DNA of 64,000 nt from Guptibacillus hwajinpoensis. GTDB taxonomy: Bacteria > Bacillota > Bacilli > Bacillales > Guptibacillaceae. Numbering within the stretch: the first letter of the stretch is position 1; each line of letters starts with the position of its first letter. The DNA is taken from positions 1,927,561-1,991,560 of the forward strand of contig NZ_LELK01000001.1 in the NCBI RefSeq assembly GCF_001039475.1, written 5' to 3'. Position numbers and translations under genes: made by a program. Below the pieces are notes generated by a model, which searched no databases, was not told the origin of the DNA, and saw only the letters and a list, made by a program, of their open reading frames with translations. Shown here piece after piece: positions 3,633-56,247 of this stretch.

Positions 3633-3906
3633 AAAAAGGGTTCCCCATCCAATAAGGACGGGAAACCCGTGTTGCCACCTTTATTCGTCTACATGAGTAA
3701 ACGCACTTAACACTTACAGGAAAAATGACACATTCCAATAAGATGTCTTTTGTATCGGTAAGACGCTCCGCCAGATCCTACTATCCTAATTTCAGATCGG
3801 TAGCTCAGAAGCCCATTCCTTTTTCGTGCACGCTGATTCTCACCTGCCATCAGCTCTCTGAAGTGCTGCTCGAAAGTACTCTTCTTCTTCATTGCCTGTC
3901 TATTTT
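3633..3906 (-). promoter_or_regulatory. T-box leader (tRNA-Trp responsive) with terminator
   Basis: Read on the minus strand, the leader carries Stem I landmarks (AGAGAGCTGATGGCAGGTGAG), a specifier region ggaaTGGgcttctgag with a Trp codon, and the antiterminator core AGGTGGCAACACGGGT. Its TGGC bulge can pair with the GCCA 3' end expected of tRNA-Trp. The competing terminator is the gggtttcccgtcc/ggatggggaaccc hairpin followed by a T run (3633-3668). ORFs called inside it are spurious. Confidence 0.93.
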
Positions 3907-9016: not shown

Positions 9017-9181
9017 GGCTCTTTTCGTAGACATTGTTGCTTTTACTGTATAGCGTTTGATTTCCGCTCCAGGATGCTTGCTTTCCGCGGGGCGGGCGGT
9101 GAGCCTCCTCCGCTCCATTCAGCGAAGTGTGTTTTTTTATTCAATAATTATTTCATAAGCAACAATCTTTTAGAAAAGAGC
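9017..9181. repeat. Dispersed GC-rich repeat element, copy B
   Basis: Complete copy bounded by imperfect inverted ends, ggctcttttcgtagacattg on the left and agcaacaatcttttagaaaa on the right. The core is abbreviated: tttccgctcc, aggatgcttgctttccgcgg, ggcgggcggtgagcctcc, then tccgctcc. It lies between convergent genes and contains no ORF. Confidence 0.85.
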
Positions 9182-9202
9182 TTTTTATTTAAATTTGAGC
9201 AC

Positions 9203-15943: not shown

Positions 15944-16162
15944 GGCTTTTTTAGTATAGATTGTTGCTATAAGAGTTGGTGAATTTCCGCTCCACGATGC
16001 TCGCTTTCCGCGGGGCGGGCGGTGAGCCTCCTCGTCGCTAACGCTCCTGTGGGGTCTCACCTGTCCCGCTAGTCCCGCAGGAGTCGAGCATCCTTCCGCT
16101 CCAATCCTAAGTTGGTTTTTTCAATAATTTTTTCAAAAGCAACAATCTTTTAGAAAAGAGCC
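15944..16162. repeat. Dispersed GC-rich repeat element, copy C (long form)
   Basis: Left end ggcttttttagtatagattgttgc, right end agcaacaatcttttagaaaa. The GC core is full length, with the segments gctcgctttccgcggggcgg, cgctaacgctcctgtggggt and ctagtcccgcaggagtcgag, flanked on both sides by ttccgctcc. The core can fold on itself (gcgggac/gtcccgc type pairings). No ORF. It occupies most of the gap between the TerC and methyltransferase genes. Confidence 0.88.
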
Positions 16163-23728: not shown

Positions 23729-23810
23729 GCGTTTTATTTCTGATGTTTGAAAAAATGTTTCTCCCGTTACTAGATCTGTGAATGACAAATGTAACTTCCT
23801 TTTTCAAATG

Positions 23811-23992
23811 GACCTTTTCTTAAAGATTGTTGCTCCTTAGAACTGTTGTATAAATACCACACTTCGCTAATTGGAGCGGAAGGATGCTCGACTCCTGCGG
23901 GACAGGTGAGACCCCGCAGGCACGCCGCCCGCCCCGCGGAAAGCGAGATCCTGGAGCGGAAATTAACCATAACCACTATACTCTAGCAACAT
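23811..23992. repeat. Dispersed GC-rich repeat element, copy D (inverted)
   Basis: Opposite orientation to copies B and C. Left end ccttttcttaaagattgttg, core gaggatgctcgactcctgcg..gccccgcggaaagcg between ggagcgga blocks, right end decayed to agcaac. It fills the space between the protease terminator and the GNAT gene. Confidence 0.82.
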
Positions 23993-45639: not shown

Positions 45640-45652
45640 TAAAATTTAATCA

Positions 45653-45758
45653 AAGCTCTTGTTGTAGACATTGTTGATATAGTGGGTTAATTTCCGCTCC
45701 AATTAGTGTGGTTTTTTATACAAAAAGCGTTCAAAAACACAATCTTTTAAAAAGAACA
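45653..45758. repeat. Short, core-less form of the dispersed repeat (copy E)
   Basis: Ends agctcttgttgtagacattg and acaatcttttaaaaagaac enclose a single ttccgctcc with no GC core. Located inside the 3' untranslated region of the rsbR-like gene. Confidence 0.7.
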
Positions 45759-49237: not shown

Positions 49238-49521
49238 GGCTCTTTTCTAAAAGATTGTTGCTTTTTGAAGGATTTTTCTCAAAGGCTCTTTTCGTAAACA
49301 TTGTTGCTATAGGAGTAGGGTAATTTCCGCTCCAGGATGCTCGCTTTCCGCGGGGCGGGCGGTGAGCCTCCTTCCGCTCCAATCACTAATTGTGGTTTTT
49401 TTTCAATATTTGTATCAAAAGCAACAATCTTTTAGAAAAGAGCCTTCTTAAAAGAACCTGACTTCGCTAATTGGAGCGGAAATTGACCTACTCTTTCAGC
49501 AACAATGTCTACAAAAAGACC
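49238..49521. repeat. Core-less repeat copy (outer) interrupted by another copy
   Basis: Outer left part 49238-49283 (ggctcttttctaaaagattg onward) and outer right part 49445-49521 (ttcttaaaagaacctgactt .. caacaatgtctacaaaaaga) join to a short-form element like 56030 without its core. The inner element lies between them. Confidence 0.8.
49284..49444. mobile_element. Nested copy of the dispersed repeat (copy F, MITE-like)
   Basis: Complete element with ends ggctcttttcgtaaacattg and caacaatcttttagaaaaga, and an abbreviated GC core nearly identical to copy B. It is flanked by ttctcaaa (49276-49283) and ttcttaaa (49445-49452), a possible 8-base target duplication with one mismatch. No transposase inside. 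Confidence 0.65.
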
Positions 49522-51743: not shown

Positions 51744-51923
51744 TTTCAATGAATGTAACGCTACAGTAAAAGAAAGAAGGTAGAACCTTCAAAAACGATG
51801 CCATTATTATGAAGAATTAGGATGAAAACAAAAGGGTACTGAAGAAAGTTGTTAATGTTATCCATTCATTTAACAAGCATATTACGTTTACGTTCCAATA
51901 CAATATTCGTTTCAATATTAATG

Positions 51924-51953
51924 AAAAAAAGCGCCTCATTTAGAGGCGCTTTT
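51924..51953 (-). terminator. Terminator of the DHA2 exporter gene
   Basis: agcgcctc-attta-gaggcgct, with T run on the minus strand. Confidence 0.88.
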
Positions 51954-56029: not shown

Positions 56030-56247
56030 GGCTCTTTTCTGAAAGATTGTTGTTTTGAAAGGATTTTCTAAAAAAAACCTGACTTCGCTAACTGGAGCGG
56101 AAGAATGCTCGACTCCTGCGGGACTAGCGGGACAGGTGAGACCCCGCAGGAGCGTTAGCGACGAGGAGGCTCAAGCGTCCCGCCCCGCGGAAAGCGGGTA
56201 GGAGCGGAAATTGACCAGCTATAACAACAATGTCTACGAAAAGAGCC
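56030..56247. repeat. Dispersed GC-rich repeat element, copy G (long form)
   Basis: Left end ggctcttttctgaaagattg, right end caacaatgtctacgaaaaga; a complete core between two ggagcgga blocks, inverted relative to copy C. Its right end overlaps the 3' end of the Nudix gene. Confidence 0.88.

Follow-up and report, generated by a model that had tools for sequence, protein, structure and literature searches.

The region 49238–49521 of the window, the whole 64,000-nucleotide stretch of Guptibacillus hwajinpoensis DNA analyzed here, raises the question of how two copies of one repeat family came to lie one inside the other, and whether the family is mobile or only a set of hairpins. A first-pass annotation had proposed that a complete inverted-ended element interrupts a second copy of the same family, and its coordinates proved correct to the base. 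The inner element is 161 nt long with inverted ends, and its host is a family copy in the opposite orientation. The 24-nt end is present as two direct copies, starting at 49238 and at 49284; the inverted counterpart of the second, which belongs to the inner element, has its last base at 49444. By size, the outer copy falls in a core-less class (110–123 nt) and the inner copy in a half-core class (154–167 nt). The features of the nest are:

49284–49444, plus strand: inner MITE copy, complete, of the half-core class, with terminal inverted repeats at both ends, 47 similar places in the genome and flanks duplicated at 7/8 positions.
49284–49307, plus strand: terminal inverted repeat on the left of the inner copy, GGCTCTTTTCGTAAACATTGTTGC, matching the left-end type of the IS1595-family elements L171 and L172.
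49421–49444, minus strand: terminal inverted repeat on the right of the inner copy, reading GGCTCTTTTCTAAAAGATTGTTGC after reverse complementation and matching the right-end type of L171 and L172.
49276–49283, no strand: left flank of the inner element, TTCTCAAA, one copy of its 8-bp target site duplication, identical at 7/8 positions to 49445–49452.
49445–49452, no strand: right flank of the inner element, TTCTTAAA, the other copy of its 8-bp target site duplication, identical at 7/8 positions to 49276–49283.
49238–49283, minus strand: opening part of the outer MITE copy, holding its right end on the minus strand and including the left target copy; it matches right ends of other copies at 93% and is placed by the joined alignment.
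49445–49521, minus strand: remainder of the outer MITE copy, holding its left end and beginning with the duplicated target 49445–49452; 90% identity over 72 nt with the core-less copy L241.
49324–49383, plus strand: half-length GC-rich core of the inner copy, read from the sequence as flanked by the direct repeats TTTCCGCTCC and TTCCGCTCC.

Without the insert and one target duplicate, the outer copy consists of 49238–49283 and 49453–49521. It retains an intact right end at 49238–49261, while its left end at 49498–49521, GGTCTTTTTGTAGACATTGTTGC, is degenerate, with one base missing from GGCTCT. The annotation had further held that the outer halves join cleanly once the insert is removed, and they do: the 115-nt product aligns over its full length to L241, a 110-nt copy that stands uninterrupted at another genomic site, with 89% identity over the aligned columns and 7 gap positions. 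The insertion point lies in an A/T-rich spacer near the right end of the outer copy. The flanks of the outer copy itself agree at 4/8 positions, a clear duplication being gone, so this copy is old or was imprecisely inserted.

A nest of this kind might also result from homologous recombination among copies, or from gene conversion, without any insertion, and the genome offers the material for it: similar copies are many, and arrays sharing end sequences show that copies recombine with one another. The inner copy is nevertheless complete to both termini and flanked by a near-perfect 8-bp repeat, and it is opposite in orientation to the host copy, which rejoins at a single point. We consider recombination a very unlikely origin of the nest and hold with high confidence that 49238–49521 is a MITE inserted in another copy of the same IS1595-type MITE family.

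The family consists of gene-less elements of 110–245 nt with asymmetric 24-bp terminal inverted repeats. Allowing up to three mismatches, the pattern GGCTCTTTTCNNAAANATTGTTGC occurs 10 times in the window and not once in 100 shuffles. Across the 4.26-Mb genome, we counted 293 occurrences of the 24-nt end pattern against 0 of a reversed-pattern control, which translates to about 140 copies. The window copies contain no open reading frame of at least 90 aa, and one predicted frame overlaps a copy end by 14 bases. Copies with the full core measure about 217–231 nt. The nearest relatives of the window genome belong to Pseudalkalibacillus, the nearest found being P. hwajinpoensis Y2 (L063). Outside the nest, the following sites of the family were recorded in the window:

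9017–9182, plus strand: family copy with the duplication TTTTATTT (8/8), recognized by end matches and flanks.
15944–16162, plus strand: full-core copy of 219 nt, duplication 7/8, with family sequence in its left flank (a second likely nested or adjacent insertion).
23810–23833, plus strand: one terminal repeat of a degenerate copy with a shortened core (core from about 23867).
45652–45755, plus strand: degenerate core-less copy; the site is empty in Y2.
51919–51926, no strand: unoccupied target TAATGAAA, holding a 223-nt copy in Y2, found by colinear comparison with Y2.
56030–56247, minus strand: full-core copy of 218 nt, duplication 8/8; the site is empty in Y2.

Like the copy at 15944–16162, another genomic copy (L002) has family sequence in one flank as well, and nesting or adjacency is thus not unique to 49238–49521. 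Elsewhere in the window genome, a head-to-tail array of three to four copies occupies G000:C14:1873073–1873630 (L138; the assembly has N inside it). Neighbors in the array share 6 bp at the junction, with no duplication between them, and a similar array occupies the corresponding place in Y2 (C10:1274635–1275321, L124). The array looks as if one insertion had been followed by recombination or unequal exchange.

The flanks of the inner copy had been put forward as an 8-base duplication, and the same length turned out to be duplicated genome-wide. Among 65 sampled end pairs of the window genome, 24 carried a perfect 8-bp duplication and 38 a duplication matching at 7/8 positions or better; permuting the right flanks among copies (2,000 permutations) gave an expectation of 2.3 and a maximum of 9 for the latter. 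Some of the sampled pairings are spurious or overlapping, which lowers the observed rate. Exactly 8 bp was the only common length of perfect duplication among the sampled pairs. The duplicated targets are A/T-rich, with a consensus of about TTWWWWAA, and A/T-rich duplications of this length were seen at most well-bounded copies.

Empty sites in relatives were found as well. At the nest locus, upstream of an MBL-fold gene, the element is absent from five relatives (Y2 and four more; L063–L067), and Y2 has colinear empty sites for the window-genome copies at 1858907, 45652, 49238 and 56030. The clearest filled and empty pair is the site of the copy at Y2:1388547: this 223-nt copy is arranged as TAATGAAA-element-CAATGAAA, and the window genome has a single TAATGAAA there. 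The presence/absence polymorphism that we observed is at the level of species.

These data bear directly on the alternative that the repeats are hairpins or terminator-like palindromes of the REP/BOX type, local or spread by recombination, with the nest a chance juxtaposition or a tandem duplication. The long copies do fold very stably (z −7.1), the core hairpin exists outside the 24-nt ends, and recombination-made head-to-tail arrays are present at 1873073–1873630 and at its counterpart in Y2. Against such an origin stand 8-bp duplications that are exact and lie at fixed ends, empty sites that have just one target copy, and the clean outer join, and we regard it as having almost no chance of being right; for the family as a whole, an explanation by REP/BOX-type hairpins only is refuted by the duplications and empty sites. 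Since other copies do have duplications and relatives do have empty sites, the first-pass view that the family is mobile and MITE-like, and more than a set of hairpins, holds. The family has what characterizes a MITE: it is short, non-coding and high in copy number, and it has terminal inverted repeats, a duplication of fixed length, and both filled and empty orthologous alleles.

The annotation had also raised the matter of a transposase with matching ends. Such a transposase was found, in the IS1595 family and in other genera, by an order-wide scan of 397 genomes for convergent ends 1–2 kb apart. Two genomes had convergent ends at a spacing of 1.8–1.9 kb, and both pairs delimit full-length elements: L171, of 1,771 bp (528–2298) with the duplication TTGACTAA/TTGACTAA, and L172, of 1,880 bp (545–2424) with the duplication ATAATTAA/ATAATTAA. 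Each pairs an end of the GTATAGATTGTTGC type with one of the CTCAAAGATTGTTGT type, reproducing the left/right asymmetry of the MITE. Both code for a transposase of about 335 residues. That of L171 matches the IS1595 model NF033547 at 1.3e-61 and PF12762 at 2.8e-17, and that of L172 shares 91% identity with the L171 protein. Passenger genes lie between the ends of both elements, a 2′-5′ RNA ligase-like gene in L171 and genes for a helix-turn-helix regulator and a small membrane protein in L172.

With the L171 transposase as query, 13 of 30 fetched IS1595 loci had convergent ends (at most 4 mismatches) with duplications of 7–8/8; the control, about 1.2 Mb of other loci, gave 0. All 13 full-length elements (L171, L172 and 11 more) belong to other genera of the order. 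IS1595 elements whose transposases are only 40–45% identical have different ends, GGCTCTGTTAAA, and the match to the MITE ends is therefore specific to a subgroup. The assignment to IS1595 draws on full-length, same-ended elements that encode an IS1595-type transposase, on the 8-bp duplication and on ends that begin with GG. It counts against this assignment that the MITE has its ends alone in common with the full-length elements and no internal sequence, so that loss of their interior is no more than a possible route of descent.

The ends of ISL3 elements also begin with GGCTCTT, and their duplications are 8 bp and A/T-rich. These shared traits suggest a MITE moved by some other transposase family with 8-bp duplications and GGCTCT ends, ISL3 above all, and ISL3 elements do occur in other genera of the order. 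None was found in the window genome, however, and not one of 30 fetched ISL3 loci had a matching end pair of the GGCTCTTTTCGTAWACATTGTTGC type, compared with 13 IS1595 loci. On this count ISL3 was rejected, and we judge a mover outside IS1595 to be extremely unlikely. Since the ends of the MITE are those of the IS1595 family, an enzyme of that family very probably moved the roughly 140 copies around the window genome, as far as sequence comparison can tell.

In the window genome itself (G000), neither a transposase of the L171 type (E ≤ 1e-10) nor a PF12762 protein was found. The L171-type enzyme was likewise not found in Y2 or in most of the genus, where only fragments or weak matches turned up in two genomes (G001 and G008), and a PF12762 search of 15 genomes gave no match in the genus. 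With no transposase in the window genome or in Y2, the family is probably immobile in both at present, short of the arrival of a transposase from outside. Such an absence is expected of a relic, non-autonomous family; it lowers present-day mobility and leaves the affiliation of the ends as it is.

We infer the following course of events. A transposase of the IS1595 subgroup would recognize the 24-bp ends and, acting in trans on the MITE, would insert it at A/T-rich sites (about TTWWWWAA), duplicating 8 bp. The enzyme may once have been resident in the lineage of the window genome and then lost, or may have entered only transiently. The nest would have formed in two steps, the core-less outer copy arriving first and the half-core copy later, the latter presumably entering the A/T-rich spacer that separates the outer copy's core site from its right end.

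Gene-less elements thought to be moved in trans by the transposase of an insertion sequence are familiar from RUP of Streptococcus pneumoniae, which has different ends and is linked to a different IS family. Within the IS1595 family, duplications are usually 8 bp and a zinc finger is present except in the IS1016 group, and the related Merlin elements have GG ends (PMC8101967); ISApl4 has A/T-rich 8-bp repeats (PMC12561309). The window element resembles the family and its relatives (IS1016, ISPna2 and the eukaryotic Merlin) in its GG-starting ends and A/T-rich 8-bp duplications, and its full-length partners have a DDE transposase with a zinc ribbon; it differs in being 161 nt long, lacking a gene and sharing only its ends with full-length elements. 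Judged by its description, an IS1595-derived MITE of Haloquadratum walsbyi, related to ISHwa6, has nearly the same anatomy, with 165 nt, a 25-bp inverted repeat, an 8-bp direct repeat and 7 copies (PMC3852290). That element is archaeal, whereas the window family has about 140 copies in a Bacillus-like genome and a separate structured core. Also alike by description are stem-loop repeats dispersed through the intergenic regions of Bacillus relatives: in the Bacillus cereus group bcr1, which is reported to have characteristics of a mobile element, and in B. halodurans Bhal-1, of 74 nt and 36 copies (PMC2267715). Bhal-1 could be related to the GC-rich core.

A literature search for the MITE family and its end sequence, with most subscription journals outside its reach, returned no description, and a search with the end and core sequences gave chance primer-like matches only. 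A high-copy MITE family of the IS1595 type is ordinary in kind, and the kind is already known; this one is undescribed within the literature searched and notable for its copy number, its breadth across the order and its shared core. Its recognition gives intergenic hairpins that had lacked an explanation a place in a mobile family whose transposase class is identified, and transposition explains some of the intergenic differences between two related species. The 24-nt end pattern is present in 257 of the 397 sampled genomes of the order and in 99 of 135 genera, so annotating the family would clean up many Bacillus-like genomes.

The core is a more open question than the kind of MITE. In long copies, it lies between the direct repeats TTTCCGCTCC and TTCCGCTCC, and core-less copies, the outer copy of 49238–49521 among them, have a single TTCCGCTCC and no core. 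The full core, present in 15944–16162 and elsewhere, is about 115–130 nt long and bounded by TTTCCGCTCC and TTCCGCTCCAATC. It also occurs without the 24-nt ends in two relatives (G003 and G011) and in other genera; plasmid matches cover the core only, and a phage search gave no match. In G003 (L211–L220) and G011 (L221–L224), the core has another conserved surrounding, often just after a terminator-like hairpin, which is possibly a second carrier element. RNAalifold predicted 39 pairs from 16 hand-chosen cores, 15 of them with at least one compensatory two-sided change, and the covariation energy term was small (−0.48); counted over these hand-picked sequences and ignoring their relatedness, the predicted covariation is suggestive. 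Rfam gave no gathering-level match, the best being a weak one to RAGATH-19 (E 0.5).

We raise tentatively, as a possibility that we think rather doubtful, that the core is a structured element in its own right, under selection and probably an RNA hairpin, which occurs in several genera and was picked up and amplified by the IS1595-type MITE. If so, the family would spread functional cargo and not itself alone, with the core-less copies as its empty form and the full-core copies as its filled form. A shared, covarying core raises the question of whether a gene-less transposon carries a functional structured RNA.

Several smaller observations concern the core and its surroundings. The short size classes (L242, L232 and the inner copy at 49324–49383) look like core deletions at short direct repeats, such as GCTC in L242. 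The half-core variant has itself been amplified, accounting for about half of the well-bounded sampled copies, a sample that the search query biases towards half-core copies. Positions 1–75 of the window hold a truncated core with a left arm, the right end not being intact. A second small repeat of 106 nt (L006:1717–1822) has the ends GGCTATGTTAATGA...AAGCTAACATAGCC and the duplication ATGCGAAA (8/8), with further flank matches in L244 and near G000:C14:1833237; the resemblance of its ends to those of the distant IS1595 clade, GGCTCTGTTAAA, suggests a second IS1595-type MITE. The window also contains a T-box leader (RF00230, 127.8 bits) at 3651–3901 on the minus strand.
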